Shown in pieces: positions 10,684 through 59,034 of a DNA stretch of 64,000 bases. The notes beneath the pieces were generated by a model, which was not told the DNA's origin, did no database searches, and saw only the letters and a program-made list of their open reading frames with translations. A program made the position numbers and the translations under genes. This DNA comes from Pleodorina starrii (taxonomy: Eukaryota > Chlorophyta > Chlorophyceae > Chlamydomonadales > Volvocaceae): the NCBI GenBank assembly GCA_030267565.1, contig BRXU01000002.1, positions 7,073,501 to 7,137,500 on the forward strand, given 5' to 3'. How positions within the stretch are numbered: the first letter of the stretch is position 1; each line of letters opens with the position of its first letter.

Positions 10684-11813
10684 TTTGTTATGCAGTTAGA
10701 AGTGATGGTGGTGAGATGTCGGAGCTACGGACCGTCAGGGCTGGAGGCTGCTATGCGAGGTGGCCAGCGCGCGCCCCCTACCAAACCATTTGTGAAACCT
10801 CTTTTGGGACCGAGAGGAGGAGGGAGCGCAAATAGTTGTGTTGTATGGGGGTTTGTGCCGCGGAAACGCGGAAGTTGGAAGGTAGTGTGCGCATCAGTAG
10901 TTGGTGCATACAAATGCAACTGCCATATTGCGCATGAACTTCTAAAGCCGCGAGTGCATTCAGGAGGCCGGCGATCTTGCATTCCCATTGACGATCACCT
11001 GGGATTTGCACGGAAATACCGGTGTCGTATGGCCCAAACAGTTAGAAGCAGGGCTGGTTAGTAGTGTTGCCTCGTCTTGCGAATTCTCAACGCATACGGA
11101 TCAAGAAGCCCTCGAAAACACCTTGTTTTAGTCCTAAAGACGTGTGCGGTATAAGGGTCTCCACGACTTGCTCTGAGACTGCCCTCAAATATTTATGATA
11201 ACTAAGAGGATAGTTCTTTTGGACGACAGCGTTACCAGACGAATAAGCACTACCTGCGCCCGGGCGGTCTACGCTGCAGTTCCGTGCCTGCAGCCCCTTG
11301 TGACTGCCAAGACTGTCGGCAGTGGGCGGTGTGATGTTGGATCTTGACATCATATTCCTCAGGCTTGACCGCAGTATGTCTCATAGGCCGGGAACTTCAC
11401 AGCACCCTCTGTTGCTAGGCTTTCGACGAAAGTGCCGTCATCGTTTGCAACCTCAAGGAGCTGCAGGCCCGGCGCTTGGGCGTAAACAGTGTTTCTCGGC
11501 GGATATCGATCTTACCCAAAAGAATTATCCTTTTCGAACCGCTATTCAACTGAAGGGCAGTTTATCAAGCCTCGGAGGCTCCTAGCCTGTGCCGCAAAGG
11601 CCTTGTGAGGATTAGATAATGGCGTCTCGGTGTATTGTTATAAGGATTGGCAACAAGGTGATGCAGTGCACGTCCGCTCTCTCGGCAGCAAGGCGGAAGG
11701 AGTGCCGAACAGACCGGATTTTCTGAAGTTTTCAGGATCGCTCTTCTTGAAGGCGTCAGCCTGTACCTGCCGCAATTGTGTTGTCAAGCCAAACTTTCTA
11801 TAACGCTGAAGCC
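10684..11813. promoter_or_regulatory. Divergent intergenic region (oxygenase leftward, FAD synthetase rightward)
   Basis: About 1.1 kb separates the two start codons, so it must hold both 5' UTRs and both promoters. Base composition drops from the GC-rich coding flanks to near-average. No TATA box or shared operator is convincing by eye, and no ORF here resembles a gene. Confidence 0.5.
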
Positions 11814-14800
11814 ATGGATATTCTGCAATACATCGATGGCATACCCGACCCTGTTGTCGTCGAGAAGGCTAGAAAGGCGATTTCCGTTTTGCGCAGGACA
11901 TGCGCCCTTTATCCGTAAGTCGTGTCACTTCCCAGACTTTTGACGATGGGGTAGCCAAACACGCGCAAAACGGCTTTCCATCGGGCTAACTGCAACTTAC
12001 CCAACTCATATCGCACAATGCCTTATGCAGGCTTAACAAAATTGCCTTCAGCTTTAACGGAGGCAAGGACTCGACGGTCCTCTTGCACTTGTTGCGGGCG
12101 GCTGTCGCGCAACAAAATGGCCCGGCTGATGGCTCCGAGCCACAAGGTGCGGTTCTGCCGGTGCTGAGGCGCTTGTGACCTCAGTTGCATGAGCTCCACG
12201 GGACCACCCGGTCCCTTCGGTAATGTGCTATGCCCCTAATGCCCAAACGGACGTCCGCATTTCCTTCCCCAGGGCTGGGTGGCATCAAGAGCTTTTACTT
12301 CCGCAACAAGGACGATTTTTCAGAGGTCATGGAGTTCGTGGAGAGCAGCGATGCGCAGTGCGTGCAGGGCGTAGTACAGAGGAGGGGAGCGAATGAGGGT
12401 TTCTGAGGAAACTGCGGTTATCTGAAAAGACGCGCATTCTCGTGGCACGTCCTGTTTGCCCTGACAAGTCGTGCGCGCGCCATGCGGACAACACAACACA
12501 CTGCGTTGACAAATGCTATTAACATGGCATCTGCCGACCCACGGGTCCGTTAAATGGACCCTAGCAGAAGGCTCGCTTTACCCGGGCCCCATTTATCGCG
12601 TTATCGGGTGTGGTATGTGGCACTCCTGCATTTCACCTACTCCCACACTTTCACATACTTCCAGACCACCTAACAGGCTCGGGGACTTGATCATGCCCCG
12701 TGGCCAGCGCATGTCAGCCGCCTCCGGTTCCTTTCCCTCAAGGTCACCGTGGAGCACGGTTGAAGCAGCCTCGCCCCTCCCCACCCCCGCTCCTCCCCCA
12801 CCCCCGCCTTCGATCAAGCCTCCCTCCCCTTGTCGCCCTTGCAGGTACGGCCTGGCTGTGGAGTATTTGACTGAGCCGGACTTCAAGCGGGGGCTGTGTG
12901 ACTACCTGGCACGGACCGGCGTGATGGCCATTGTGCTGGGGACGCGCAGGTGGGGGGCCGAGGAGGGTTGGGGTGGAGAGGGCGGACAAGGTGAGAAGGA
13001 TTGGATACACTGGGCCCATTGGATCGACGGGCGGGCGGCAGCTGCTGTGTGCTTTGGGTCCTGCCTCCTGTTCAGGATCCTGAGGCCCTGCTTGGGCGGG
13101 CCGGTGGGTGGCCGTGTGGATCTGGAAAGCGGAGGGAAAGGAGGCGACCACCAGACCGGTTTGCCTGCTGCTGCTGCTGCTGAAGTTGTCCACGGGGGTC
13201 AGAGGCCGGAGATGCGGGGAAGGCACGCACGCACGCTGGCTGCGTACCTTGTACGTGCTTGAGGCGCTCGCTGCGGAAGGAGCCGGCTGGGGGGTGAAAA
13301 GGAGATACCGCAGCGGAGACGGAGACGGCGTTAGCGAACGGACCCGGAAGCCAGCAATACTTTCCTGGGGGTGGGGGGTGGTTGGCTGCGTCACTCAAAA
13401 CAACCACCATGTCCCCCTCCCTGTCCCTGATTCTGCCGCCGCGCCTGCCGTGTCCTTCCACTTGCCCCTCCTGGTTACCGTGTGTGTGTGTGTGCGTTCG
13501 GCTGGATGCCTTCCCCCCCTCCTCCCCCCTCCCCGCCGAGCCCTGGGTCCGCAGGGGTGACCCCAACGGCGGCACTCAGGACTGCTTCTGCCCCAGCAGC
13601 GACGGCTGGCCGCCCTTCATGCGGGTCAACCCCATCATAGACTGGACCTACCACGACGTGTGGGTGTTCCTGCGCGCCACGCAAGTGCCGTACTGCAGCC
13701 TGTACGACCACGGCTACACGTCACTGGGCGGCACCGGAAACACGCTGCCCAACAGGTGCGGCAGACGCGCACCCTCGTGACCTCATGACCCGTGGGTCAC
13801 CGTCTCTCTCCAAGCGCGTCAGTTCTTGGGTGCCACTGCCGGGAGGAAAGTAGTCGTGACGAGTAGTAGCGAACAGACGTTTGTGTGCGGCGGTCCATGG
13901 GTGCCCTCGACGCCCCCGGCCGCCCGTCCCATCGCTGCGGCACCCCATCACTCCGCCCCTTCCCTCCCCTTCCCTCCCCCCGCACGCCGCGGCCTCCCTG
14001 AGCGGCCCATTACCCGCGCTTGCATCCGCCCACTGCCAGTCCACTCCAGTCCAGTCCAGTCCGGCCGCGGCTGCGGCTGCCAGCCCCATCAGCTGCAAAT
14101 GCCCTGCGCTCGCTAAACCCCAAACCCTCCCCCCACCACCACGCACACAAAATACTCTTCCCCCGCGGCCGCAGCTGCCTCGGTTGTACTCATCTCGCTG
14201 TTCTTTCCATTACCTTTGTCATTATTTACCGTTCACGGGCTCCGGCCTACCCGTGGATAACCTCCGCCCCCCCCCCCGGCTGCGTCCCCCTCTCCCCCAA
14301 TCCGCCCCCGCAGCGCCCTCCGGCGTGCGGATGGCAGCTACGAGCCCGCCTTCAAACTGGCGGACGGGCGGCTGGAGAGGCTGGGCCGCATGAACCCGCC
14401 AGCAAAACCGCACCCCCACACCCACCCCCACCCGCATCCCCACCCGCATCCCCACCCGCATCCCCACCCGCACTCGCACGCACACGCGCACGGCCAAGCC
14501 GGCGGCCAGGGCGCCGATCAGCAGCCGCACCCGCAGCACCCGCAGCAGCAGCAGCAGGCGGACGGGATGGCCGAGGACGGGAAAGACGGCGCGGCGGCGG
14601 CGACGGGGCCGAGATCTCCGCGTGGCGTCAACGGAGGCGGCGTGCGGGGGGGCAGCGGTGGGGGCGCAGCGGCCGGTCACGGCCAGGGTCAGGGTCACGG
14701 TCAGGGTCACGGCCTCCTGACGCACAGCGCCGCCATTGTGATCATCGGAGATGAGCTGCTGTCGGGCAAGGTGGGGACTTGGGGGGGGGGGTTGGGGGGC

Positions 14801-17800
14801 GGTGTGACATGGCGGTGTGGCATGCTGTGACTTTATGTTGCAGTTGGTGTGGGGTGTGTTGGGCGCTGGCGGGGCGTGGGTGCCGGTGTTGGTCCAGTGG
14901 CGACGGTTGCGGAAGGGGAGGGGGGGTGTCCACGTATAGGCCGGAGCCCGTGAACGGTAAAGGAACAGGAGGGAGGCTGTCACGTCTGCAAAAGAACAGC
15001 GAGGGGGGTCAGCACAGAGTGGGTCGACGGCGTTGCAGGTCCCTTGCGGCGCTTTGCGGCCCCTGGGTGTGGCGCTGGAACGCGTTGGCTCAGCCCTCAG
15101 GGGAGGCAAAGGGGAGGATGGTGCGAGTCCAGGGGGGGAGGACCCTTGCCTGCGGGCGGTCATTCGTCCTTTCTAAGCCTAATGCCCAATCAATGGGCAC
15201 CCTAGGGGAAACCCGCGCGCCCGCATTGCCCCCCACCCCCATGAACCTGAACCCCCTGCCTGGCCGCCGTCTCCGTCCCTTCGCTGCGGTATCTTCTTTT
15301 TACCCCGGCCCCCCCTTCAGGTTGAGGACCTGAACGCTCGCTTCTTGTGTCGGGAGCTGCGCGCCTTGGGCTGGCAGGTGACGCGCGTGGTGTTCGTGCC
15401 GGACGACGTGGACGAGATCGCGTCTGCCGTACGCGCTCTGGCGGCTGTCGTACAGGTGGTCATCACGGCGGGCGGCATCGGGCCCACGCTGGATGACGTC
15501 ACCATGCAGGCGAGAGAGCTGGGGGAGCTCAAAGGGGGGGGCTCCGCAATACGGTACCCAGGAAGGTCAGCCCAACCGCCTACGGCCTACCCCACCCCAC
15601 CCACCCATGTGCCGTGACCCTGACCCCGACCCCGACCCCGACCCCGGGCCGCACCTCCCCCGAAATCCCACCGCACTGCCTCCCTTCCCCCGTCGTCGTC
15701 CAGCTGCTCACTCACTCCTGACCCCGTGTCCCTACCGCCCCAGGGCATCTCCCGGGCTGTGGGGCAGCCGCTGGTCAGGTGCGTCCTCCCTGGAGTGGGG
15801 GTGGGGTGGGGAGGAGGGAGGAGGGAGGAGGGAGGAGGGAGGGGAGGGGACGTGGGGTGGGGTGCGGTGGGGGAGATGGGCGGGTCGCGGGTAGGGCCCT
15901 AGCCGCGAAGGGACGTAGTACCCTCGTAGGCCCCCCTCCCTGGTCGGCTGCTGCGATGCGGCCGCTGCAGAGGCTCCGGTCGCCAGTGCGCCAGTGCGGG
16001 CCACAATCGCCCCCCCCCGGGGCTGTTGACAACCATCAATTCGCAAAGCCCCCTGTGCTGCAGTCCTCCTCTCTTCCCCACCCCCACCCCCCACCCCCAC
16101 CACCCCAGTGTCTCATGTTTTGTAATGGAGGATATCACACCATAACCCCACCCCACCCCCGGGCCCCCGCCCCTGCCCCCCGCCCCAGGCTCCCCGGCAT
16201 GGTTGAGCGCCTTGCCAGTTACTTTGGCGGCGAGGGCGCTCTGAGCCCCGCCCACCTAAAGATGGCTGAGGGCCCCCAGCAGACCGAGCTGATCGACTAC
16301 GAGCTGCCGGACAGCGGCGGACAGACCTCCAAGTTCCCGCTCATGAGGGTCAACAACATTTACGTGCTGCCGGGTACGTGAGGGGGGGAGGTGGGGCGGG
16401 AGGGGGGGGAGGGTGCGGCCTGCACAAGGGGGGGGCACGATGGGTACGGTAGAACACACAGTCGAGGTGGGGCCTCAGGGGATCGCTGACGGGTGGGGGG
16501 TGGGGGTGGGGGTGGGGACGGGGGTGGGGTGGGGGTGGGGGTGGGGTGGGGGTGGGGGGGATGTGAGTCGTGATGGTGGGTAGGGTGGGGGCGGGGTGGG
16601 GGCATGGAGCCCCCTTCCCCACCCACCCCTTCCCCAGCCCCCCACTTCCCAACCCTCCGGCTGCTGCTTTGCTCCACTGCAGCAGCGTCGAGGGCTGGTT
16701 GCTGCAACGGTTGCAGTACCGGTTGACGCAGTTCACCTCCCCGCCCCGGCGCCGCTCCTTCAGACCCGAGCTCACTCTCCCCCGCCCCCCCCCTCTCTCC
16801 TTGTTTCATTCTTGCAAATTCACTCTTCAAACACCCCCCCGCCCCGGGCCGTTCTTATTACCCCCCGCCCCCCTCTCCCTCAGGTGTCCCCACTCTGCTT
16901 GTTCAGAAGTGGTCGGCCCTGAAGCCCCGGCTGCAGGAGGCGGCGCTGGCGCCCTTCAGGAACGCAACACTGCGACTGTCGCTCAAGGTGCGGCTGGGGC
17001 GGGGGGGCTGGGGGGTTGGGCTGGGGGGTGCGTGTGGGTGGGTGGATGGATGGAGGGGTAAAAGGACGATACCGCAGCGAAGGGACGTGGGGTTTGTGGG
17101 GGAGGGGGTGCGGCAGGGGGTTTGGGGGATAAAAAGTAAAACCGCAGCGGAGAAGGAGACGGCGGTGCGGTGCGGTGCGGTGCGGTGAGGCAGCATAAGC
17201 TGGGGAAGGCGGGGACCAACAACGGCGGTGATGGCAGCGGTGCGGTGCCGCGACGTTTGCTTTGCATCCGGAGGGGGAGGGGGGCCTCGAATATATTGCA
17301 GCGCAACATAACGCGGTGCAACATAACGCGGGGCAACGCACTGCGGGGTGGGGCCGGCGGCATCCAGGAAGGGGGATGGATGGGTGTGCCACACGGACCA
17401 GCGCCAAGCAACGGTACTGCAGTACGGCAAACACGCTGCCCTGCGGCCTCTGGGCCTGAAGGTCCCTTCTCCCTTCTGATGAGTCCATGCACGATGCCGT
17501 ACACATCGTTCTTCCCCCTTTCCCCCCCCCCATCCCGGCCCGGGGCCCCCTGGCACACTGCCCGCATCTGCTACCGGTACTCGTAACTGAACGTGTGCCT
17601 TGCCTTTCGTGTTGTACGACCACGAACTTGTGTACGACAGGACGAGACAACGATCGCCCCTGCGCTGGTCCGTGTGGCCTCCACCCACGGTCTGGATGTG
17701 ACGGTGGGGTCGTACCCGGTGGAGCAGGGGATCATCATCACGCTAGGTGTGTGTGTGTGTGTGGCGGGGGGTGGGTGGGGGTTATCCACGTATAGGCACG

Positions 17801-18515
17801 AGGGGGTCGCTTGGGGGGGGGGGGAGGAGAAAGAGGGGGTAGTAAAGGAGCGGGAAAGCGCGGCAAACGAGATCTGGCAGGGGAGCGGGGCGTAAGGCGC
17901 ATGTGTTGTTGGAGGTGGAGACTCTCCGAAAGGAAGAGGGGATAGAGCCGTGGAACAGGGGCCTGGGGCCCGAGGCGAACGAACAGCAGCCTGGGGGTTT
18001 ATTACCCTCCCTCCCCCCGGCCTTCTTCTGTTACTTTACCGTTCACGGGCTCCGGCCTATACCCCCGTGGATACCCCCCCCCCCCACTCACTCACGGGCC
18101 TCCTCGGCTCGGCGGCCCGGCGGTCTCCCCTGCCCCCCCTCCCCTCCCCTCCCCGGCTGTCTCCACCGGCCCCGTGGCTATTCCCCTTCACCCCCTCCCG
18201 CCTCTCCTTCCCCCCTCCGTGCTCCGTCCCTTCGCTGCAGCATCTCTTTTATTCCCCCCACCGCCACCCCCTTCTGGCTCCCCTCCCCTCCCCGTCCGCA
18301 GTGACTCATTTTAGTATATAAAGGAGCATAACACCCCCTCCCCTCCCCCCTCCCCTCCCCAATCCCCTCCCCCCTCCCCTCCCCAATCCCCTCCCCTCCC
18401 CGCTTCAGACAGCAAGAACTCTGAGAAGCTGGAGGCGGCCATTGCCGAGATCACCCAGCTGCTGCCCGATGAGGCGGTGGTGGCGCTGGAGAGGGACGTG
18501 GACTCGCTGGCGTGA
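11814..18515 (+). CDS. FAD synthetase (FMN adenylyltransferase) fused to MoCF/molybdopterin-binding domain
   Basis: Makes FAD from FMN and ATP. Twelve exons: 11814-11914, 12031-12146, 12273-12357, 12845-12949, 13555-13755, 14314-14770, 15321-15509, 15744-15778, 16189-16373, 16884-16987, 17641-17746 and 18409-18515. They total 1791 nt (596 aa). The N-terminal PAPS-reductase-like domain has the pyrophosphatase loop SFNGGKDS at 41-48, GTRRGDP near 133-139, then PFMRVNPIIDWTYHDVW and YTSLGG, all close to the catalytic motifs of eukaryotic FAD synthetases. Residues about 215-340 are a low-complexity linker with a His-Pro repeat, Gln and Gly runs. The C-terminal MoCF domain begins at AAIVIIGDELLSGK (to 355) and contains TAGGIGPTLDDVT at 404-416. 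This order (synthetase first, MoCF second) is that of plant proteins such as Arabidopsis At5g03430 and the reverse of animal FLAD1. Intron 7 is GC-AG (CAG|GCGAGA). Confidence 0.93.
13291..13342 (-). repeat. Family B copy, FAD synthetase intron 4
   Basis: Reads GATACCGCAGCGGAGACGGA, then GACGGCGTTAGCGAACGG: a nearly complete reverse-orientation copy of the B core. Its T-rich end points to exon 4, although exon 5 is somewhat nearer. Confidence 0.85.
14195..14262 (+). repeat. Family A copy, FAD synthetase intron 5 (acceptor side)
   Basis: Contains CTCGCTGTTCTTT, then TTACCGTTCACGGGCTCCGG and CCGTGGATAACC. It ends about 50 bases before the acceptor of exon 6, in the sense orientation. Confidence 0.9.
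14928..15000 (-). repeat. Family A copy, FAD synthetase intron 6 (donor side)
   Basis: Reverse-orientation copy including the full 5' extension. On the minus strand it reads GCTGTTCTTTTGCAGACG, continues through TTTACCGTTCACGGGCTCC and ends TATACGTGGACACC. The GTGGA end points to the donor at 14770. Confidence 0.9.
15264..15306 (+). repeat. Family B copy, FAD synthetase intron 6 (acceptor side)
   Basis: Reads GCCGTCTCCGTCCCTTCGCT, then GCGGTATCTTCTTTTTACC. Its T-rich end lies about 15 bases from the exon 7 acceptor and may serve as part of the polypyrimidine tract. Confidence 0.85.
16805..16832 (+). repeat. Family E copy, FAD synthetase intron 9
   Basis: A 28-base segment (begins TTCATTCTTGCAAATTC, ends CTCTTCAAAC). 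It is identical to the reverse complement of 54997-55024 in an unrelated gene. It lies about 50 bases before the exon 10 acceptor. Confidence 0.85.
16842..16868 (+). repeat. Family D copy, FAD synthetase intron 9
   Basis: Reads CCCCGGGCCGTTCTTATTAC then a C run, ending about 15 bases before the exon 10 acceptor. Confidence 0.8.
17066..17165 (-). repeat. Two family B copies, FAD synthetase intron 10 (donor side)
   Basis: GATACCGCAGCGAAGGGACG at 17068 and AAAACCGCAGCGGAGAAGGA from about 17138. Both are reverse-oriented, with T-rich ends toward the donor at 16987. A run of GTGCG units follows. Confidence 0.8.
17781..17802 (-). repeat. Family A fragment, FAD synthetase intron 11 (donor side)
   Basis: GTTATCCACGTATAGGCACG lies 35 bases downstream of the donor at 17746. 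It is inverted relative to the copy at 18019-18075 in the same intron. Confidence 0.85.
18019..18075 (+). repeat. Family A copy, FAD synthetase intron 11
   Basis: GGCCTTCTTCTGTTACTTTA, then CCGTTCACGGGCTCCGGCCT and CCGTGGATA. Sense orientation; it pairs in inverted arrangement with 17781-17802. Confidence 0.9.
18218..18330 (+). repeat. Family B and family C copies before exon 12 acceptor of FAD synthetase
   Basis: B core CTCCGTCCCTTCGCTGCAG and TCTTTTATTCC at 18221-18255. Family C (GTGACTCATTTTAG, then TATATAAAGGAGCATAAC) follows at about 18301-18332. Both are in the sense orientation on the acceptor side. Confidence 0.8.
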
Positions 18516-20096: not shown

Positions 20097-21599
20097 ATGA
20101 CGGCAACGGCGCCAGTTCCCGGCAGCGGTGGTCGCGGCGCTCCCTCGCACCGCCTGGCGGCCTTGGCGGCGCTTCCGAGGCTGCTGCTGCTGGTGGTTCT
20201 ACTGCTGTCGCTACGAGCCGCCTCGGCCTGTTCGACCGAGGGATGCGCCCCCTTCGGCAGGTGCGTCTGTGCGGCTGCTACGCAGCCCAGGCATCTCCAT
20301 CCCTGGGTGTGGTGCAGTTCCGGCCGCGTAGGGCGGTGCAACCTGCTGCACACACGCCAGAAGACATGGCGCCCCGGCGAAACGGCTCCGTGCGACCAAG
20401 AGCGCCGCCTAAAGTTGCGGCGTCGTCCAGTCGCCTCCTCGTCCTTGTCCGGGCAGTGTGCGGGTGATGGGTGCAGCACGGCTTGCCCCGGCCCCTGTGT
20501 TGCCGGCGCGGTTGGCTGGACCCTGGCCCGCTGTCTTTTGCACGCCCCTCGTCCGTGGCTCTTGCCCTAGTGCCTCGTTACGCCCGCCGCCCCCACGCAA
20601 CACCCCGCCCGCCCGCCCACCCGCCCGCCCGCCTCAGGCCACCTGCGCCGGAGCAGGAGCAGCAGCAGCCCCCGTTGTCCTGCGTGCCCTGGACGAGTGA
20701 CGTGGCCGCTGCGGTGGCGAACACCGCCTGCGGCCGGGCCAACGGCGACTGCCCCCGACCCACCCTCGGGGGTCAGTCTGCAGAGCTGCCCAGCCCGCCG
20801 CCCGCCCCGCAGTGCTACACGGGAGCCACCAAGGAGCAGTGCATCAATGATGCACGGGCGAGCGCGCCGGCAAGTGCCGTACCGTAGCTTGCCGTACTTG
20901 CCGCCGCACTGCTGACCTACTGGACGCAGCAGCCTCAGCAGCAGCAGCAGCAGCAGCGTCGGATTATTGGGAGGGGCACAGAGCGGTTCACTTCACGGCG
21001 TTGCGCTGTGTTAAAGTTGGGTTGACGTTGCGTTCGGGTTGCGTGCGCGCGCTGCTGTCTGGCCCATAGCCAGCGGTGTGCGGGCTGCTCCCCGGCAATA
21101 TGCCTGAGGCCTTTTCACTGTTCCTTCCACCGCAGCTGGCTCCGGAGCCCAGCACAGCACACCACCTCAGCTCACCTCGCTCGCTTCACTCAAGCCTGCC
21201 GGCTGCGTGGGGCGGCTGCGTGTCCCCCCCCCCGCCCCGCTTACCTCGCTGTTCTTTTGCAGACGAGACGGCCTTCTTCTGTTACTTTACCGTTCACGGG
21301 CTCAGGCCTATACGTGGATAACCCCAGCCCCGGGTCCGCTCAGGGTCCGCTCGCGAACGCCGTCTCCGTTCCTTCGCTGCGATATCGTTTTTCTCTACCC
21401 CCGCCCGCCCCTCCCTGGTCCCTGCCTCGCCCCCATGTGCGTTCCTTCGCTCCCTTTGCAGGCGGGCAAGGGCTACTGCAGGTACTACAACACGGGTGCG
21501 GGTCCGTGCAGCACCGACGTCTTCCGCCAGAAGTTCGAGACCTACCTGGACCAGCTGTGCGACCAGGTGGCCAGCGGCGCACTGGTGGAGCTGCTGTGA
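20097..21599 (+). CDS. Small secreted cysteine-rich protein, unknown family
   Basis: Three exons: 20097-20260, 20638-20869 and 21462-21599, totalling 534 nt (177 aa). Residues about 20-45 are a strongly hydrophobic Leu-rich stretch (LPRLLLLVVLLLSLRAASA) followed by CSTEGC, a typical signal peptide with cleavage after Ala-Ser-Ala. The mature part is short, Pro/Gln-rich in the middle, and carries about ten Cys (CVPW, TACGR, DCPR, QCYTG, QCIND, YCRYY, PCST, LCDQ) spaced as for disulfides. It is probably an extracellular-matrix, vacuolar or secreted peptide; I do not recognise the family. Intron 2 has a GC donor with strong consensus (CCG|GCAAGT). Reading through that donor would stop a few codons later, so the third exon depends on it. 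The final helix-like segment (FRQKFETYLDQLCDQVASG) favours the spliced form. Confidence 0.7.
21246..21398 (+). repeat. Longest A+B repeat unit, secreted-protein gene intron 2
   Basis: A complete family A copy with 5' extension (CGCTGTTCTTTTGCAGACGA, then GACGGCC and GGATAACC at about 21246-21323). A complete family B copy follows after about 30 bases (AACGCCGTCTCCGTTCCTTC, then GATATCGTTTTTCTC, to 21396). It sits just upstream of the exon 3 acceptor. The TTTTGCAG inside it is itself a good acceptor sequence. Confidence 0.92.
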
Positions 21600-39909: not shown

Positions 39910-42900
39910 CAGTACCGCAACTACGTGGTCCTTGGTAGGCGGCACCAGGTCGCACTCAACGACGTTACCTCCACTCCCCCGGAGTGGGCGATGTGTCGAC
40001 GAGTGTGTCCCTCCCCTTCCCTTCCCTGATCTGAGCTGAGCTATGCTCCCAGGGGAGGAAGATGGTTGGTTTACCGGCGGTCGGCTCGCGCACTGCTCCG
40101 GGGGGGGGCGGGGGAGCGGCACGCTGGGGGGTGGGAGGGTGGGGGTGGGGGGCCCTGCAATAAGAGTGTTGCGCTGGGTTACGTGGCTTGCGCGCTCCCG
40201 TACCGCATTGTACGGAAGGGTGATGACGAGGTGGCGGCTGAGAGGCGGTTGGCGGCGCCCGCCCCCCGGTTCGTTTCGGTTCGGTTCGGTTGGGTGTGCC
40301 GCAGTGAGGCGGTGAAGGTGATGTCACGGGGCTCTGCTGCTCATGTGATGTGATGTGATGTGGTTTGACCGTCGCGCCACCATCGCAGCCGCCCGGGGAT
40401 GCATCACGGTCAGAGGGTTGGTGTGTAGCGTTGCGGGCTTGCGGCCCACACTCCTCCCTCGCCGCCCATGTGTACTGTGCGCGCTTTGCACTTTGCCCCC
40501 CGCGGGACCAACAGCGCTTACAACGGACATGGCTTTAACTGAACTGAACTGAACTGGGGAAACAGTTGCTCTGTCTCTCTCTATACATAGATATATATCC
40601 GCATCATATCTGTTACCAGAGGCCTAAACTGTTCGTTGCGCTGTTGCTGGTGCTGCTGCTGCCGCTTGCGTTTGCGGTTGACGGTTGCGGTTTTATCCGT
40701 TTGTCGTTGTGGCCAACATGATGATTCCATTCCAAGCTTCCAACGCCAACCAACCAGTCGCGCCGGCCGGTCGATTACCGTATGCGGTCGGTCAGCTGTG
40801 CCGCCGTCACATGCATCGACACGTTTCGACCAACCTAACAACCTACTTCTGTACCTCGACTCCTTCCTGTTTGTTTGGGCCGGGGCCGTTGTGAGCGCTG
40901 CTCCGGCATCACACCGTGAGAGTCTCACAACGTACATTGCGCATGGTGCCTTGCTCAACGTTGCCGCCCCCTCCCCGTTCACGGGCTCCGGCCTATACGT
41001 GGATAACCCCCCCGATGGCCCCGCGCGTGATTATTCTGATTCTGAGGTTGTGGCGACATCCACCGGTGTGTTGGCCGCCCGTGTTACATCGGGTGTTGAG
41101 AGGGACGGAGACAGAGGGACGGCTGAGGCCGCTGCCGTCCCCTGCTGCTGATGCTGCTGCTGCTGCGGCTGCTGGCGTGCAAAGGGGCTGAGGGCGGGGT
41201 TAGAGCAGCCAGGTAGGGCCCTGGGCGAGTGAAGTTGCTCTTCCAGTTGGGCAGGCGGCACTGCTGAGGGGGTGGGCTGGAAGGGGACACGCTCCAGGGG
41301 GGGGCTCCAGGACGTGTGTCGTGACTCGGTGCAGACGCCGGACGTGACGTGACGGGACTCACCGCGGAGGAGGAGGACGGTCTGGGGGGTGTATCGGGGA
41401 AGGTGTATTGGTAGCTGTACGGTATGCGGTATGCGCGTGTGCTGTTGGTTGCTGTGACGCTCCTGCTTTGGTGGGTGGGTGGTAGAAATGTTGCGCACAG
41501 CGGGTGAACTTGAGGTGCGCCCGGAGGCAGCGGCGGTGACTGCCGCGGCGGCGCTCATGCGAGCCACCCAATCCAGTCTAGCCACTAGCTCTGCTCTGCG
41601 CTGCGGTGTATCCGAGTCCTCGCCCTTACCAGCCTGACGTGCCAGGAATGACTGCTTGACGGGTGGAATGACGGTCTGGTGGGCGGGTGCTGTCTGTGGG
41701 CGGCGTGTGGGGAGTCTTGCAGTGCAGTGCAGGCGGCGGGTGCTGGAGTGGTGTGTGTCCGGACAGACGTTGCGGACAGCGCCCCGTGGACGCATGTCTT
41801 GTACCGTACAGTACAGTACCGCCTGTCCAGTGCAGTGCAGTGCAGGCCCCACTGACGGATCGACAGAAACGGGGAAGGGAGGAAGGATGGAAGGAAGCTG
41901 CAGATGCTGGGAGTGGCCCCACGCGACACCGGGGCAGCGGTCCCCTTTTGCGGGGCGCCGGGTGCGGGTGCGGGTGCGGGGGGGCAGCAATGGCTCACGC
42001 ACTCGTGTCGTGTCTCGATCCGCTTCACCCAACACCACTCAAACAGCCCCGATCTAGCCCCGGTGATGCCAAAAGCAAACAGCGATGAGCAAGTGGGCTC
42101 TCTGTCCAGGCATCCTCACGTGCTCACGTCGCTTTGCAGCTTCACCTTTGCCAGACCCGGTTCCACATCCAAGCAGCGCTGCAGCTTCAGCACACCAATG
42201 GATGAAATTCACGCATCTATCCCCTAGGCGCTTCTACCCCCACACGCTCGCCAAACCATTCACTAAAGCGTATGCGACACTCGACAGACGCCTCGTGAGC
42301 AGCAGCAGGTTACAAGCAAGGGACAACACCCGACGGAAATAACGGCCGGAGCAAGGCACATCGACACCGCTGTCTCACCCCCCCCCCATTGCCCAGCCCA
42401 TTGCTTGACACCCTCACACCGGACTGTGGGGCTACCCCCGAACGCTCCGCTGTTGCCGCAAACCGCAGGTGTACCGTACTTGCATGCGTGCTACGTGCAT
42501 GACAACAGCCCACCTCCACTCCCACTTCCATTCCGTTCCCGACCAAGAGAGCCCTGGGGCCTTGGGCCGCACACAATCTGGCCACCCTGCCCCGCCCCGA
42601 CAACGCTCCAAATCAGGCAACAAAACGGCGCATCACCAACCCGGGCGCTGGACCCTTATGCGCAATTGCCACCCTCGTCCATCTGCCATAATGCAGCCGT
42701 ACAGCAAGCGATTCCTGTTCTTGCACACAGACTCGGTTTCCCGACTCGTTCTTGGTAGCATGGTGGTGTCACCATCCGGCTGACAAACGGATTGCAGCGC
42801 AACAAAAGTTCAGGAGGTAGGACCACAGCACTGGCAGTAGCAGTGGCAGAGTCAGCGAGGCAGGGGATTCAACATACGCAATACTGTGCGCTACTGCCGC

Positions 42901-47300: not shown

Positions 47301-50300
47301 AGCCGCGCGACGACTTCGCCCGTACATCCGTACATCCGTATGTTTTCGTAAAAAAAGAACAATGCGGCTCCGCAAGTGGCGGACAGCAGCAGTACAACCA
47401 AGTACCTCATGCAAGGGGAGGGGGGTTGGAGCAAAACCACCGTGTGGTTTCGGAGCCCTACTGTCGAGGGCCGCTAGCAGCAATGCCTCCCATTGCCACA
47501 CTGTGTGTTGCGGTGTTGCGGTGTACCTACAACGCCCCGAACGGGCAAAGATATACGTACGGGTCCTCCTCCTCCTCCTCCTCGTCGTCGTCGTTGCAAT
47601 ACAACCGGTCGCCGTTTGAGCGGTGTCAAGACCAAAGCTGCGACACCCGTCCAGTCCCGTCCCGTCCCGCCCAGTCCCGTCCCCAATTAGTGAACGGCGC
47701 ATGAGAAGTGCTGTGTGTGCGGCTGTACCGGAGCCACCCCTCCCTCTCTTAGCCCGCACCGCGCGCTGCCACATTGCTGGCACATTGTTGATGCGACGCA
47801 TTCGGAAAAAGAACGTTCTATGTACGATTCAGGGAGCGACGCCGCGGGACGGGCGGGCGGGCGGGCAAGGGGGGGACGGCGACACAGCCCCCCCCCCCTC
47901 CGCGTATGGGATGTGCCGAGGGAGAGGGAGAGGGAGCGGGAGACAGCAGCAACGGGGCCACAAAAGCCACACAGCCCAGCCCACGGCCCCGCAGTTGCGT
48001 GCAGGACGACTCGGCCGCGCTCACCCCCACCCCCACCACCCTCCCACTATTCCGTGGAGAAGAGCCCGAGGGCGCAGCGCAGCGTATGCCAGCGTCCTTC
48101 GGAGGGGGCCCCGCGGAGACAGGGAGGAGGGAGGGAGGGAGGCCTGCCGGCTGCCCGCCCAAGAGCGCCGGCAAGCCCCCCCCCCTCCCGCAAACCTCCC
48201 GCCCAGCCGGCCCTCCAGCCTACGCGCCCGCGCTCCATTTCCTTGTCCAGCCTGGCTGACCGACACGCAGTCGGTCAGACCTGAGGGGGTGTGGTGTGGT
48301 GTGGTTGAAGCGGGCTGCGAGGTTTCGGCCGGCCTGCCGCGACTGCATCCGCTCGCTCGACAACCCCCCTTTCCCTTTCCCACCTCCTTTCCCCCCCCCC
48401 CCTCCCAACAGCCCAACCTCTCATGACGCAGCCACCACAACTCCGCACCCCTCCGAATCCCGTTCCACACCAACCGGACGCCAACTGCCGCCACTCCACT
48501 CCACTCCACTCCGCACCTCAGCGCCCCTCCACGGCCCACCGCCACCAGCCCACCGCCACCGGCGGTATCCCATGTCCCGTTGCGCCTCCCCCTCTCTCCC
48601 TGCTGGCCCCACTGCCGCCCTCCTCACTCTCCCTCACCCACCCACCCACCCACCCACCCACCTGGCTAGTGAGGCTCCCGCTCGTCCCCGGCGCCCCTCC
48701 TCCTCCTCCTCCTCCTCCGCTGCCGCTGCTGGCCGAGGCGGCGGTGACGAGGCCGGACAGTGTGGCCCCGGCCGCCTGCATCTGGAGGTGCTCGTCGTGG
48801 GACATGGCCTGAGCCTGACAGGGGGAGAGGGAGGGGAAGGGGAGGGGGCGCCAGGGAGTTATCCACGTATAGGCCGGAGCCCGTGAACGGTAAAGTAACG
48901 GAAGAAGGAGGGTCAGGGAGCGATATGCTCCTCGGGGAAGGGGAAGGGGCGGGGAGGTAATAAAGATGAAACCGCACGGAGTGTGTGCGGTGTGTGGGGG
49001 GGAGAGGAGGGAGTATTCACGTAAAGGCCGGAGCCCGTAAGCGGTAACGTATGAGAAGAATCCTTCCCGTCTGCAAAAGGACAGAGAGAGGCGGGTACAG
49101 AGTACACAGAGGGTCCAAACAGGCAATAGGCTGAAAGTGACAGTGACAGTGACAAGGGGGGGGGGACAGAATAGGGCCCACCCAGCAGGGAGAGACCTAG
49201 CGGGGAGTGAGTGAGTGAGTGATCCGGATCCAGATGGAACGGAAGCAGGGAACCAAGCAGCAGGGGTAGGGCGGGGCAGGGCAGGTGTGACATTGGGGAC
49301 GAGGGGTGAAAGGTGGGGGGCAAAGCCCTGTTCACGCAGGAAAGCATAAGGGGGTAAGAAAGAAGATACAGCAGAAGGGGGTCCTCGCATACCCTAAGCC
49401 TAGCAGCATCAAGGGGGTGTGGGCCACAGCCCCGCGCGGCCCACCCGCGGCGCCGTGTCAAAGGGAACGGGACTGCCCCCCGAGCCCTGAGGCCCCGGAG
49501 GAGGGCATCCCGACCAGATGAAACAAAGCACCCTGGCTGTTGCGGTCATCAAGGCACCGTCATGCGTCATCCAATCCAATCACTCCACCGCCAATGGCCC
49601 CCTCCGATGTTTCTTTATACCCCTCCGAAACCACCCAACTGGCGGCCACTCCACCAAACGGCTGGTGGGTATGTGGGTAGGTGGGTGGGTGGGTGGATAA
49701 GGGTTGGGGTTCGCTGTTGGTGTATCGTCTGCTCGCCCTGCCCAGTCCCAGAGGCGGCGCGGTGCGCAGACGGGCCATCCCCCCACCCCTCCACCCCCCG
49801 GGCTCCGGCCTATGCGTTGATAACCCCCGCCCGCCCGCCCTCCCTACCTGCAGCAGCAGCGATGAGACTGTCGGCATCTGCATGTTCATGTTCATGTTCA
49901 TGTTCATGTTCCCTGGGGGAGCACTGCCCCCCGCCACTGCGAGGTTGACGGCCTGCTGAGCCAACAGAGACTGCAGGTCCAGAGAGAGAAGCTGAGCCGC
50001 CTGGGGGGTTGGGGGGATGGGGGGATGGGGTGTGTGTGGGGGTTGGGGGTTTGGGGGGTGGGGGCGGGTTGGGGGGGGGTTGGGGGTTGGGGCGAGAGAG
50101 GCGGCGGGAGCCAAGCCGGGGGCGACACCAGGTCTGTGTTGCGGAAAGTACCCACCGTGTTGTGCTGCGGCGGGTCCGTCCGTGAGCGAGGGCGCGAGGG
50201 CGATGCGGCCCCAGCCCCAGCTCGCTCAGCAATACAGCGCACAAAGGGCGGAACTGCGCAGTCAGTCGCGCGGACACGTGCCGCCACAGCAGCCGCTGTC

Positions 50301-53300
50301 CCACCTCCCACCTCCCACCTCCCACACACCACTAAGAGGCTCATATCGGCAGGTAACCGGCCGCAGCCGCAGCCGCAGCCGCAGGCTGGGGAACCACCCG
50401 CCTCACCACATCCCGGGTCGGGCTGGGTCGGGACTTGAGAGGCACAAACCCGTCCCCCCCCCCTCCCCCTCCCCCTCCCCCCGCCGCCGCATACAATACA
50501 ATCCTTTCCACTCCGTTCACTCCGTTCCAATCCACTGATGCCACATCACTCATCGAGACATTCGGCTCGCACAGCCGCACGGGGGTGAGGGGGGGTCACG
50601 GGGTGGGGGCGAGGGGAGGGGGTGTTGCTACCTGTACCGAGACCCGCCCCCCGACCCGACCCGCCGGGCCACACCTACGACCTACCCGCTGCGCCCCCTC
50701 GCCCTCGCCGCCTGCGCCTCCGCCTCCGCCTGCGCCGTTGGCCTGCAGCGCGTTCAGGAGCGCCGGCAGCGACAGCTGCGGCAGACCGCAGCCCTGCGGA
50801 CCCGCCGCCGCCGCCGCCTGCAGCAGACTGCTCACCGTCACCGCCTGCATCTGCATCTGATGCATCGGCATCTGCTGCGGCCCCGGGCCCCCCGCGATGG
50901 GCTCTTGCTGCTGCTGTTGCCGCTTGAGCCTGAAGCAGAGTCCGGGCGGTTTCGGAGCAGAGCAGCGCAGCGCAACGCGGCGCCGTCAGGTGGTGGTGGT
51001 GGCGGCGGCAGCGGGCGGACGGGGCAGCGGCGTCAGCAGCAGCAGCAGTGGAGCGGTTCAGGGGTACAGCAGGAGGCAGGCAGGCAGTCAGGCAGGTAGG
51101 TGGGTAGGCGGGAGCGGCACCCGATGCAAAGGCGTGTGGAGTTCAGCCGCAGCGGATCGAGGGTCGGAGGAGGAGGAGGTGCGACTCGTATGTATGCCTC
51201 ATGTTATGCTTTGTGTGTTCCGTGGCGTAGATGTGGACGTCGAGGTGACGGAAGCGGCCGCCGTCGCCCCCCCCCACTCACAGGGGGGTACTCACCCACC
51301 CGGCAACAAAGAGACCGTTTCCTAGGGGCACCGCACGATGGGGGCGGTGAGCAGTGGCGAGTAGTGGGGAGGGCAGCAGCTGCGCAAGTGGCCGGCTAGC
51401 GGCTACGGTCGCTCCCGGACACCCAACGGACACGCAACTCCGGTACCCCAGCCGCCCGCCGCAAGAGCTAGAGCTACCGGCAAGAAATACCGCCACCGCT
51501 ACCGAACAACCCGCCCGCCTCCGTCGACACCCCACCCCACCCCCCACTTCTCCCTCCCTAAAACCCGCCCGCCCCCCCCACCGCCCGCTCTACCTCCGCC
51601 CGTCCCCTCCATCCCCCGCTCTCCCTCTGCGCCCCGCCTGCCCACCCACCCCCCGCCCCCGCCCCGCCCCGCCCCCGCCCCGCTCTCCTCACTTTTGCGA
51701 GATCTCGTACTCCTTCCGCCAGCGGCCCACGTCCACTCCCCGCTCCCGCAGCGTGACCTCGTGGTGGCGCAGAAAGTGTTTCCTCACGCAGTCCGTGTGG
51801 TAGGCCGAGTAGGCGGTGCAGGCGTGGTTGCACAGCAGACACATGATCCTCTTGTGGTCGGAAACCTGGGGGGGGGGGCGGGGCGGGGAGAGACAGCGCC
51901 CGGGGCGGGTAACACGGGGGGTAATTAAAACGGCCCGGGGCGGGGGGGGGAGCGGGTGACACGGGGCGCAGAGCAGCGGCGGCGAGCAGCGGTGGGTTGG
52001 ATGGGTGGGGTTTTGGACGGGTGGGGTTTGGGGTCAGGGGCGCGGTGCCTGGCGGCCCGCTGATCGGGGAGAAGAGGATGGCTGAGGCGGGGGGGGGGGG
52101 GAGAAAGGGAGGGAAGCGGGGAAAGGAAGGAAAGGGGGTAACGCCCTCCGACTCCCAGGCAAGCGCCTCAGCTGCGCGCGCAGCTACCAGCGCCACACAC
52201 ACAAACACACACACGCACACACACATACACACCCACAAAGGAACAAGCGAATTCTTTCCCGACGCCGCGTCGACTTATGTCAGACCACCCACCCAGCCAC
52301 CCACCCAGCCACCCACCCAGACCACCCACCCCCCCAGCCGCACCCCTCCAGCCACCCGTCCACCCAGTCGCACCCCTCCAGCCCACCCGCCCGGGCCCCC
52401 CACCCACCTCCACCATGTGCACAATCTGTCCGTCGAACAGCTCCGCGATCTTGCGGCTCATGTCCGCCATCTTCTTACAGTGCTGGGCCTCGTTCTTGAA
52501 CCTGGGGGGCGGGGAGGCAGGAGCCGGAGGGCCAGGGCGGGGGCGGGTCGAGGCCTGCGTGCACTTCGTTCTCGGTGGCGGCCCCGTGGCATGCGTGTGT
52601 CCCGGGGAGCCCTCACAAGATCACAGGGAGGGGAGGGGCGCGGAACGGAAAGCGAAGGCCGTACACGGCCCCCCGAGCGAGACCGGAGCTCCGGGTGTCC
52701 CGCCCCCTCCCTGTCATTCGCGGGACACATTCGTTCGTTGCTCGGTGGAAATGGACTGCTGGCGAGGAGGGGCAGGAGTCGCTGCTGCTGCTGGCTGAGA
52801 CGCGTTCACTGAAACCCCGCCCCGACCGCGTAATCCGGCTCGGGCGACGGTGACGGTGACGCGAGATGGTGAAAATCCCCTGAGTGAAAGGTGGACCAGG
52901 CGGTGGGATCCGTCATTGGGGGCATAGGGCCTCCTTGGGGGGGCCACTTTGGGGGTTATCTACGTATAGGCCGGAGCCCGTGGGCCACTTTCGGGGGGGG
53001 GGGGGCAGATCCAAGATGCGGTACCGCGGGGGGGGGGGGGGAAGGGGGCGGTCTACGCCGCCAGCGCGCACCCACCGCCCGTCCGCGTGCCGCGTCTTGC
53101 TCTCCTTCTTGGCTTGGCCCCCGCCGGCGCCGCCGCCGCCCATGGCGCCCTCGCTGCCGCTCTGTCGCTGCATCCCCAGCAGCGAACTCATCTGCGAGAG
53201 GGGGGGAGGGGGAGGGGAGGGGAGGGGAAGGAGGGGAGGGAGGGGAGGCGGGTGGAGGGCCTACCTGGATTCAGGAGCACACAGACATCAGAGAAGCTCT

Positions 53301-56300: not shown

Positions 56301-56966
56301 TGTTCATGCTCATGCGGAGGGAGCCGCACTCACGAGTGTCCCGCCCCCCCACCCTTAACCCCCCTTCCCTCCCTCCCGGCGGCGGTGGCCCCGTCAGACC
56401 CCCCCTCATCAAACTCCTCGCGGCAGCAACGCCCTCGAACACGCCCCAACGCCCGCCGCCTCCTCGCGTCCTCAGTCCTCACCCCCCCTTTAGTCTCTAC
56501 CCTCGGCGCCCCCCGGGACAGAACCCACCTGCAGAAACGTGCGCAGCGCGGCCGTGAGCTCCCCCAGTGTGCGCGGCTGCGACTCGGGCGGCGGCAACGT
56601 CCACGGCCCCAGGTTGTCCTCCGCCTGCACCCAGCATCAGCATCAGCAGCAGCATCAGCAGCAGCATCAGGAGCAGCATCAGCAGCAGAGTCGCAGTCAA
56701 CACAAAGCCCCCATGGCGCCGGTGGCCGGCGTTGGAAAATGAAACAGAGTGGGCCGAGCCGGGTCTTCGGCCGGGGGGCCTCCACCAGTCCCCGACCCCC
56801 CGGGTATTGCGGCCGGCACGGCTCCGCTTCCTGCCATTACTGCCATTACCACGTGCAGCAGCCAGGCGGACCGGGCCGCATTCTCATGAGTGAGTGAGTG
56901 AATTGCTCTCCCCTGCCGCCCACACGTCAGGCAGCACGCCGGTATCACTCTATCTATCTATCACTC

Positions 56967-57006
<40 letters not shown>

Positions 57007-59034
57007 GGGTGGTTGGGTCGTCGGTGCGAATGACCCGGACTGCGTATCGTTCCCCGGCCGAGGCCGAGGCTGAGGCCGCTTGTTCCCCCCTCCCCGCTCC
57101 CCCGGCCCGGCCCGCAGCTGCTGCCTGCCCTGCCCGTCCCTTCCCATCCCAAGGGGCTCACCTGCACCACCCTCCGCTTGCCCCCGGGCTGGTCCGGCTC
57201 GCCGTACACCTCATTGGTACGGATGAGCAGGACGCGTGTGAGGCGCGGACACCCTGCCGGACCTAGGGAGGCGAGGGAGGGAGGCATGAAGGGGGGGTTG
57301 GGGCCAATGAGCAGTCGGCGGCGGCGGCCTCATGTGCGGCAGCACGCGGCGGCCTCAGGCGGCACGACACGGCGCAGCGCAGCGCCCCGTCGTGGAACGG
57401 AACGGAACGGGACGCGGGGACCCCACATGTGTGCACCCCATATGCGCGCCTCCGCTCGCGGGTGCGTACTCACATTGCCGAACCCCCCCCCCCCCAAGTT
57501 AAGGGAAGGCGGACCACCCGCCAGCGTGTGTGCGCCGGCTGCTGCTGCTGCTGCTCCGCACACCGAATCAGGTGTCATTCCCACTCCCCCCGAGCGACCC
57601 GGGTAGGGGCCAAGCTGCTTTACCCCTCCCCCCCCTTCCCGCCCCCCGCCCATCCCCCCACCGCCGGACCGCCGCACCCGCTCCCGGCCCAAGCAAGGAA
57701 TCAAGTAACGGTAACCTAGGCAACCCCGACGAACGGTGCCAGAAGCATTTGCCGGGGAACCGGGGGCTGGGGTCGATGCAGGGCGGCGATGCAGGGCGGC
57801 GCAGCCAGAAACCGGAGCGAAGGGGATCAGATGGCCGACCCAGATGGCGGACAGCCGAGGGCGGCCACCTCTCCCCTCCCCTCCCCTTCACTCCCCTTCA
57901 CTCTCCTCCCCTCCCCTTCACTCCCCACCCCTCCCCTCCCCTTCCCTCCCCTCCCCTCACCTGGAGGGGACGGCAGCGGGTCGCCGGTGACACGAGCGTG
58001 TGTGTTTGCCGTGAAGGTGCTGAACGTGAAGCCCTCGGCGTCTGTTGGGTAGACCACTCCGTCCAGAGCCACATTGGCCAGTTTGAAGTAGTCGCGGATG
58101 GTGGGCATGTGCAGCTTGCCCTGCAGGGAGGGAGGGAGGGAGGAGAGGGGAGGGGGAGGGCAGGGGAGGGAAGGCGGGAAGGGAGGTGAGGAGGGAAGGC
58201 GGGAAGGGAGGTGAGGAGGGAAGGCGGGAAGGGGGGTGAGGAGGGAAGGGCGGAGGGATGGGGGGAGAAATGGAGGCAGGGGCCAGGTCAAGGCGTTCGA
58301 GTGTGGCGAGCCCTCCCCTCCCATCCCTCGCTCCCGTGGGAGGGTCGGACGGGGTCTACATCGTTGCGTGGGGCAGGGGTCGCAAAAACGGGGAGTTATC
58401 CACGTATTGGTGGGGAGGGGGCGGAGGCGTTGGACAGATGCAGCTGGAAGGAAATCGCGCCTCGATAGCGGCAGAGCTTATCGTGCGTCTCTTCGGTCGG
58501 ACCGAGGGTCTCTTGACACGCGGATGGATGGTTGGGTCGAATAATCTCATGGGCCATGTTACGAGGGCCCTGTTGCTCTTTGAGTGGCAACGGAGCGGGT
58601 AGGGCCTGGCAGCAGTGCAGTAGGCGTGCATCCAGGTGCTCGATATGAAGAGGATGCCTGGCTCGGAGATAGCCGGGTATTTCGCGGACGCCACCTCCGG
58701 CATCGCTTCGCGGTGGGGAAAAAGGGTGAACCCAGGCCGACACCCCCTTCCCCACGCCGGTACGCTCAAACCCCTCACACCGTGGAAATAGAAGTATCGT
58801 TTAACGTTCGGGTTCGCAACAGCCACATAAGTGAGCGCTGTCTGACCTGACCGGCCAGAGCAAAGCACAGCCGAACTGGAACTTAGCGCTGCTGCCGCTA
58901 CACCAACATGATAATGGAGGTAGCCCGCCCAGACATCGACGCTCACGCCACACCTCTATAAGCTGGAAGTAAGCTCTTGGAGGCGGCGTGCCGTCTGGTC
59001 CCGGCTCTCCATATTGAATGAGCACCGTCGCCAT
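44346..59034 (-). CDS. PB1-like and zinc-finger-like regulator, novel architecture (766 aa)
   Basis: Sixteen exons: 59034-58954, 58120-57961, 57262-57162, 56624-56529, 55856-55756, 54954-54851, 54270-53915, 53191-53076, 52501-52408, 51865-51693, 50929-50686, 50000-49848, 48814-48662, 45874-45689, 45252-45147 and 44422-44346. All are GT-AG and in phase. The family is not recognised. Residues 1-80 (MATVLIQYGEPGPDG...) are globular and unknown. Residues about 88-195 resemble a PB1 domain: a first strand LTRVLLIRT, an Arg-rich turn, TLGELTAALRTFL, then LFKYRYQNELVPIVSDSAL. Residues 404-460 contain CLLC at 412-415 followed by HFLRHH at 433-438 and extra Cys/His, a C2H2-like zinc site, with a basic RWRKEYEIS after it. 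The rest is disordered Ala/Gln/Gly/Pro-rich, with Leu-rich SSLLQ motifs, a five-fold Asn-Met repeat and a seven-Pro run. A transcriptional or scaffold role is inference only. Confidence 0.75.
44492..44530 (-). repeat. Family C copy, intron 15 of PB1-like gene (acceptor side)
   Basis: GTTATATGCTCCTTTATATA with a following GAGTCACTGCGGACGTTGTG. It mirrors the order at 18301-18332 (GTGACTCATTTTAG, TATATAAAGGAGCATAAC), confirming the unit is longer than the core. Confidence 0.85.
45008..45034 (+). repeat. Family D copy, intron 15 of PB1-like gene (donor side)
   Basis: CCCCGGGCCGTTCTAATTAC then CACCC. Its C-rich end points to exon 15, antisense to the transcript, as for donor-side copies of family A. 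Confidence 0.8.
45433..45682. repeat. GTTGT/GTTGG pentamer satellite, intron 14 of PB1-like gene
   Basis: About 50 pentamers of GTTGT and GTTGG with occasional GACTT, ending within 10 bases of the exon 14 donor (45689). On the transcript strand it is an ACAAC/CCAAC repeat. Confidence 0.95.
45924..45950 (-). repeat. Family C copy, intron 13 of PB1-like gene (acceptor side)
   Basis: GGGATATGCTCCTTTACATA then ACGGG, about 50 bases before the exon 14 acceptor on the minus strand. Confidence 0.8.
48858..49090 (-). repeat. Two family A copies and a family C remnant, intron 12 of PB1-like gene
   Basis: Copy one (48858-48911): GTTATCCACGTATAGGCCGG, then AGCCCGTGAACGGTAAAGTA. Family C remnant GCGATATGCTCCTCGGGG at about 48921. 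Copy two (49013-49090): ATTCACGTAAAGGCCGGAGC, then CCGTAAGCGGTAACG, with the CTGCAAAAGGACAG extension. All are sense to the transcript on the acceptor side of exon 13. Confidence 0.9.
49798..49825 (+). repeat. Family A fragment, intron 12 of PB1-like gene (donor side)
   Basis: CCGGGCTCCGGCCTATGCGT then TGATAACC. It lies about 25 bases from the exon 12 donor and is inverted relative to the two copies at the acceptor side of the same intron. Confidence 0.85.
51917..51942 (-). repeat. Family D copy, intron 9 of PB1-like gene (acceptor side)
   Basis: GGGGGGTAATTAAAACGGCC then CGGGG, about 50 bases before the exon 10 acceptor on the minus strand. Confidence 0.8.
52954..52982 (-). repeat. Family A copy, intron 8 of PB1-like gene
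   Basis: GTTATCTACGTATAGGCCGG then AGCCCGTG. This is the one intronic A copy whose GGATAACC-type end does not face the nearer exon. Confidence 0.85.
53511..53555 (+). repeat. Family B copy, intron 7 of PB1-like gene
   Basis: GCCGCCTCCGTCCCTTCGTT, then CGCTGCGGCATCTTTTTGTT. The four extra bases TCGT interrupt the core. Confidence 0.8.
54997..55100 (-). repeat. Family E and family C copies, intron 5 of PB1-like gene (acceptor side)
   Basis: Family E at 54997-55024 matches 16805-16832 exactly over 28 bases in reverse complement. CCCTGCGGACGTTGTAG follows at about 55032. Family C (GTGATATGCTCCTTTATAAA) is at 55077-55098. On the minus strand the order is C, then E, then the exon 6 acceptor. Confidence 0.85.
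55660..55744. repeat. GGTGAGGTGAGGTGGGGT array beside an exon donor
   Basis: GTGAG and GTGGG pentamers on the plus strand. On the minus strand they are CTCACC and CCCCACC, immediately after the exon 5 donor at 55756. Confidence 0.9.
56947..57006. repeat. CTAT microsatellite, intron 3 of PB1-like gene
   Basis: About 13 CTAT units with one interruption (CACTCAT). Confidence 0.95.
58394..58413 (-). repeat. Family A fragment, intron 1 of PB1-like gene
   Basis: GAGTTATCCACGTATTGGTG; only the terminal part of the core is kept. Confidence 0.65.

Follow-up and report, generated by a model that had tools for sequence, protein, structure and literature searches.

The DNA analysed here, referred to as the window, is a stretch of 64,000 nucleotides of the Pleodorina starrii genome (contig BRXU01000002.1, positions 7,073,501 to 7,137,500). 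Its genes were predicted with a transcript-free HMM gene finder of our own, which was seeded with a C. reinhardtii codon table and converged on CAG/GTGNG-like donors and YYNCAG/G acceptors. The repeat copies described below were masked and the non-coding model was strand-symmetric, so that intron skew could not steer the calls. The predicted host genes are an FAD-synthase-like gene with PAPS_reduct and MoCF_biosynth matches at 11619-21599 (+), a gene at 29521-39909 (+), of which 345 aa were tested without a Pfam match, and a gene at 44726-58703 (-), of which 264 aa were tested with the same outcome. The initial annotation had spoken of four unrelated genes on both strands; both strands are indeed used, but by three predicted genes and not clearly four, since the one at 44726-58703 may be two merged genes. 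Of five predicted proteins compared with Pfam, three are supported in part (PAPS_reduct and MoCF_biosynth; Maf1; 2OG-FeII_Oxy_3) and two had no match; the Maf1 piece is 89% identical to its counterpart in Tetrabaena and 84% to that of C. reinhardtii. Comparison of 20 single ORFs of the window with Pfam yielded one HMG-box match; the ORF at 62424-63746 (+), which has such a match, also contains internal repeats. No known structured RNA was found in the window at the Rfam gathering score.

Dispersed over these genes is a short repeat, family A, for which 16 places had initially been listed, 14 of them intronic. The shared sequence and its positions are real and far above chance: the 20-mer CGTTCACGGGCTCCGGCCTA has 11 window matches at up to 3 mismatches (0.02 expected), the 13-mer TACGTGGATAACC has 14 at up to 2 mismatches (0.45 expected), and a tail profile recovered 14 of the 16 places in a window scan at an E threshold of 0.01. 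The remaining two, given as 17781 and 58394, miss this threshold and are counted as probable copies only. Predicted introns contain 15 of the 16 places, including all fourteen described as intronic. As regards the two copies placed outside introns, the one at 40975..41008 (+) is in predicted intergenic DNA as described, while the 24-bp copy at 4722..4745 (+), whose flanks share CCCCCCCAACAGC as a target-site duplication, falls inside a long and uncertain predicted intron.

Within the FAD-synthase-like gene, a sense copy near an acceptor occupies 14218..14262 (+); it had been placed at 14195, where the sequence is diverged. The copy reported at 14928 is present and extends to 15002 (14926..15002, -, antisense on the donor side). 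A probable short copy at 17780..17797 (-), antisense and 33 bp from the donor, contains the exact 13-mer, a sense copy at 18018..18074 (+) lies mid-intron, and the longest-matching window copy, with TTCTTTTGCAGACGAGACGG, is found in sense orientation at 21246..21323 (+), its acceptor 138 bp downstream. The second gene carries sense copies at 32035..32092 (+), 13 bp before the acceptor and with flanks that share CCTGTCAG, at 33720..33797 (+), 65 bp before the acceptor, and at 34773..34845 (+), as well as an antisense copy at 34144..34170 (-), 48 bp from the donor. In the minus-strand gene, the copies at 48858..48908 (-), 42 bp before the acceptor, and 49013..49087 (-) are sense, and the one at 49799..49824 (+) is antisense and 22 bp from the donor. 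The copy at 52954..52982 (-), with flanks sharing AAAGTGGCCC, is sense yet closer to the donor, and a probable very short copy (ATACGTGGATAACT) at 58394..58413 (-) matches the 13-mer with 1 mismatch.

Genome-wide (95 contigs with 136,057,477 bases), exact matches of the 20-mer number 365 + 361 on the two strands, and the 21-mer GGCCTATACGTGGATAACCCC has 1,558 + 1,455 = 3,013 matches at up to 2 mismatches, as compared to 0 for the reversed 21-mer. The window is a hotspot: the genome mean predicts 1.4 matches of the 21-mer and 11 are present, a post hoc comparison inasmuch as the finding had been picked for its repeats.

Copies from the window and from loci fetched from the genome (L numbers below) were combined into a non-redundant set of 106. 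A common 3' end, GTGGATAAC followed by C's, characterizes this set: 102 of the 106 copies reach at least position 75 of the 80 profile positions. The 5' ends are variable, with copy lengths from 23 to 2,480 bp. When the 40 scored matches to an 81-base tail query (among 1,180 candidates) were aligned on the common end, their leftward extents differed widely, and a 100-base query from further left retrieved 84 candidates. A 22-mer about 110 bp upstream of the end has 103 genome matches versus 3,013 for the 21-mer at the end, a difference to which lower conservation of the upstream part may contribute; the reversed control of the 22-mer gave 0 matches. In seven of the eight loci taken solely by the order of exact 20-mer matches, the central copy measures 31-55 bp, and lengths in the remaining fetched loci are overestimates because these were selected for good or long matches.

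The longest copies, in loci L069, L081 and L082, comprise 2.2-2.5 kb of element, are collinear with one another over 1.4-2.5 kb at 77-97% identity, and carry a reverse transcriptase (RT) region upstream of the same tail. In a fourth RT-bearing relative of family A (L080, C4:2234880), unrelated DNA of about 600 bp breaks up the alanine-rich part. In L082, L023, L056 and L007 some tail copies immediately precede or follow other tails, and in L082 the element sits just behind an older tail; no pseudo-LTR or pseudo-LTR tandem could be defined among these adjoining copies.

This architecture bears on what kind of element is involved. The initial annotation had suggested an intron-targeted MITE or an introner-type element. 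A mobile element located mostly in introns is borne out, and the 15 of 16 window copies in predicted introns would suit either kind. Neither kind fits otherwise: the left end is not fixed, since a single 3' end is combined with graded 5' ends, the parent element bears an RT, and none of the seven inverted pairs in L082:2050-4620 joins both ends of the element, as a MITE or other DNA transposon would require. The window copies, about 14-80 bp, are far shorter than the introns of 135 to 2,523 bp in which they lie, and intron ends neither coincide with them nor are defined by them, which argues against introners. We consider both proposals almost certainly wrong. Alternatively, family A could be a non-autonomous element of the SINE type that a LINE mobilizes, and the long copies with an RT mere chimeras; this would agree with the tiny size of the majority of copies and with the many other retroelements in the genome. 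The copies form no discrete short length class, however, and the collinearity of the long copies, each with an RT ahead of the common tail, further speaks against chimeras, so that this explanation is highly improbable.

The RT region is an open frame of 537 aa (L082:2089-3699) with DFTRLYTNIPH, GIPMGASPAPFLANLFLGWYEYQFL and RFLDDL. Among the 8,000 best candidates scored, 16 homologs of this protein were found, those with named sources belonging to Tetrabaena, Gonium, Pleodorina and Chlamydomonas reinhardtii. An alignment of the query with 14 of these homologs, 15 sequences in all, contains 32 invariant columns, including GxPMG, ANLxL, RxxDDL and LYDKR. Pfam gave no match for the protein itself and RVT_1 below threshold for two of seven homologs; PF26215 (helix-turn-helix) is listed for nine homologs and was not reproduced by our own Pfam scan. 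A sequence search of the PDB returned two chance-level matches only. An RVT_1 scan of the genome, in which 150 of 1,045 candidates were scored, detected other retroelements, whose ORFs reach 1,584 aa, and none at the RT places of family A.

Relatives of the RT core outside family A are present in the same genome (47-65% identity over 31-68 aa), in open frames of up to 1,181 aa. The relative on C40, 57% identical to the family-A RT over 68 aa, has the order VIYAIFWLPTQ...IYVGQTRGSCWERLRRHL...EMVWAQRLGTLRPASQRGLN, then DCPC (CxC), then the RT region. The first of these blocks is GIY-YIG-like and, by sequence similarity, precedes the RT core by 2.1-2.2 kb in an open frame of the same length at six loci; the corresponding ORFs of 1,063-1,171 aa, apparently intact, are at C40:153401-155600, C19:365533, C1:1616824, C23:2021254, C38:414440 and C2:5381420. 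The block had no Pfam match at E<=10, and none of the five matches in a genome scan with the Pfam GIY-YIG model lies beside an RT place. Penelope-like elements (PLEs) combine a GIY-YIG endonuclease with a telomerase-like RT according to PMC11167929, which also describes a PLE that begins reverse transcription internally on its own RNA. For rotifer Penelope elements, PMC3846280 reports target-site duplications, partial tandems and 5'-truncated copies. Both short duplications and 5' truncation, as expected of a PLE, are present in family A. The subgroup with the endonuclease at the N-terminus reportedly comprises Chlamys of green algae and Naiad of animals and, as Craig et al. are said to have set out in 2021, is distinguished by a GIY-YIG domain before the RT and a CxC linker; such elements are also said to favour microsatellites. 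None of the family-A copies seen reaches an endonuclease of its own, and the domain order is taken from the relatives. On the basis of these relatives and of this definition, family A itself is likely an N-terminal-endonuclease PLE.

Insertion sites were examined on the strand of the element. The 25 bp on each side of the fetched copies contain 55-59% C, and C-runs of at least 5 cover 22-23% of them, G-runs 0-0.7%. When the flanks are extended to 100 bp, C exceeds G in 75 of the 89 on the 5' side and in 72 of the 89 on the 3' side, the reverse holding for 11 and 16, respectively. The initial annotation had pointed to target-site duplications as informative, and an excess was found: 12 of 99 copies reached a score of at least 5, as compared to 0.98 on average and at most 4 when flanks were re-paired at random in 200 permutations. 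At this strict score 87 of the 99 copies are without a duplication, and C-runs can mask duplications. Those detected are 8-14 bp long and located within or beside the C-run; in L082 the left and right flanks share CCCCCCGGGATGAC. Since their flanks share such duplications, some window pieces of merely 24-58 bp arose by insertion.

An occupied and an empty member of one gene family, L071 and L076 (C21), which we take to be paralogous proline-rich, pherophorin-like genes, differ by the element and overlap by 18 bp in the C-run; a search for more element upstream of L071 had met the paralogous gene without the insertion. This pair was dropped as proof of an intron older than the insertion, because gene models break down in the proline-rich repeats of both loci.

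The very short copies at C-runs would also agree with patches of break repair, in which broken poly-G/poly-C tracts are filled, independently of an endonuclease, with reverse-transcribed bits by a PLE enzyme or telomerase; telomerase RNA at breaks provides a published parallel (PMC2246262). Target-site duplications imply staggered cuts, however, and the related ORFs include a GIY-YIG-like domain. Both observations make such patches an unlikely source of the copies.

The most conspicuous feature initially described was a polarity: 13 of 14 intronic copies were said to point with their 3' end to the nearer exon. We count 12 of 14, because in addition to the acknowledged exception at 52954 the mid-intron copy at 18019 (327 versus 334 bp to the exons) is an exception; with the copy at 4722 included, 13 of 15 point to the nearer exon. 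This polarity was compared with the composition of the introns. Across 72 predicted introns of at least 100 bp, the first tenth has 50% G and 19% C, the last tenth 22% G and 44% C; a limited literature search found no pertinent publication on this strand asymmetry. Of 476 bare C-runs of at least 5 on either strand of the same introns, 360 (76%) are directed toward the closer exon, and the 13 of 15 window copies do not differ significantly from this value (P=0.25). In the wider sample, 88 copies of the fetched loci, with overlapping loci counted as they stand, are located in predicted introns (73) or intergenic DNA (15) and 0 in exons, which make up about 22% of the bases of these loci. An earlier, unmatched comparison in the fetched loci had argued against a wholly passive polarity: 63 of 69 copies pointed to the nearer exon when 76% were expected (P 0.0025). 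When local base composition was matched, the window added and masked bases left out of the distances, 69 of 81 copies pointed to the nearer exon versus 65.0 (sd 3.5) under the null (P=0.17; alternative matchings, P 0.07 to 0.19). Thus the orientation toward exons exists, with no clear excess over matched C-runs. As the C-run target and the G-to-C gradient of introns together reproduce the rule, we conclude that most or all of the polarity follows from target choice.

The idea of splice-site targeting or selection is accordingly not upheld as the cause of the polarity: bare C-runs follow the toward-exon rule as well. A splicing-related sequence kept near exons, with its function fixing the orientation, would draw support from the sense orientation of all 45 acceptor-side copies in complete introns of the fetched loci, from the acceptor-like TTCTTTTGCAG in longer tails and the donor-like GGTAAAG on the antisense strand of the tail, and from the overall excess of sense copies described next. 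Graded truncation and target-site duplications are typical of insertions, however, and many copies are too short to contain the acceptor-like string, which renders this reading very unlikely.

Base composition does not account for the sense excess. Sense orientation was found for 59 of 81 intronic copies versus 36-38 expected (P<0.001, 1,000 draws), and all four subsets show the excess (8 of 12 in the window, 6 of 9 in L001-8, 27 of 35 in L009-38 and 17 of 24 in L039-68, with one more sense copy elsewhere). Judging from its resemblance to a donor, GGTAAAG of an antisense copy near a true donor could compete with that donor, which would possibly result in the bias; insertion tied to transcription is a possible cause as well. 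A weaker selection or a transcription effect may thus be behind the leftover bias. A further-reaching conception regards a telomerase-related poly-C/poly-G retroelement as a writer of micro-insertions in intronic pyrimidine tracts, mostly of tens of bases and some 3,000 in the genome. Coupling of its reverse transcription to transcription or to the repair of G-rich ends would place them mostly in sense just upstream of 3' splice sites and slowly remodel splice signals, longer tails containing the acceptor-like TTCTTTTGCAG; we hold this conception to be doubtful.

A second short family, B, consists of GGAGCATATCACTCCCTGA followed by a C-run and has the same C-run and polarity pattern as family A. 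Its sequence GGAGCATATCACTCCCTGACCCC has 1,739 genome matches at up to 2 mismatches and 0 for the control. Window copies are at 44481, 45919, 48913 and 55072 (all -), and the family-A copy at 48858..48908 directly follows a family-B tail; in L049 and L081 the second family directly follows a family-A tail. Of 23 copies examined, 16 are in predicted introns, 6 are intergenic and 1 is without a gene model. The 16 intronic copies, 11 of them sense and 5 antisense, are all directed toward the closer exon; as several share one intron, they are not independent.

Overall, the common 3' end, the graded 5' truncation, the RT frame in the longest copies, the C-runs and the excess of target-site duplications lead us to regard family A as very probably the 3' end of a Penelope-like, i.e. 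telomerase-related, retrotransposon that inserts into C-runs, with the polarity mainly as a by-product. We infer that a protein of the element opens the DNA, whereupon the G-rich strand would offer a 3' end; its G-run would pair with or abut the end of the element RNA (...GGAUAACC) and prime reverse transcription, which presumably halts after tens of bases in most cases. Because the G-rich strand would act as the primer, the strand of the C-run would dictate the orientation of the copy. As introns are rich in G behind the donor and in C ahead of the acceptor, copies on the acceptor side would be sense and those on the donor side antisense. Selection against antisense copies near donors, or a link to transcription, may add the extra sense excess.

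Among known systems, Chlamys and Naiad resemble family A in an RT akin to the volvocine ORFs and, as reported for that clade, in an insertion bias for simple sequences, and the relatives in this genome combine the GIY-YIG-like block, CxC and RT in this order in one ORF. Family A differs from them in copies without an endonuclease of their own, in the C-run target and in copies of mostly tens of bases. Canonical Penelope/Poseidon PLEs (PMC11167929, PMC3846280) are similar as RT elements with 5' truncation, short target-site duplications and insertion beside older copies; they are unlike family A in that the GIY-YIG domain follows the RT and cleavage prefers AT-rich DNA (PMC11167929), and no pseudo-LTR tandem was found in family A. 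The introners of Micromonas are likewise short repeats within algal introns; family-A copies, in contrast, do not form introns. No published description of family A was found in a partial literature search, and the word Penelope is absent from the retrieved section of PMC8226300.

The pattern that seemed aimed at exons is thus explained by two facts, the use of C-runs as target and the shift from G to C along introns, and the same trap is possible for any element with a strand-specific simple-sequence target. The sense bias allows a direct test between transcription-coupled insertion and selection near donors. Furthermore, the copies form a naturally occurring set of very short retro-insertions by a probable Penelope-like element, some of them flanked by clear target-site duplications, and such a set provides material on the priming and early stopping of relatives of telomerase.
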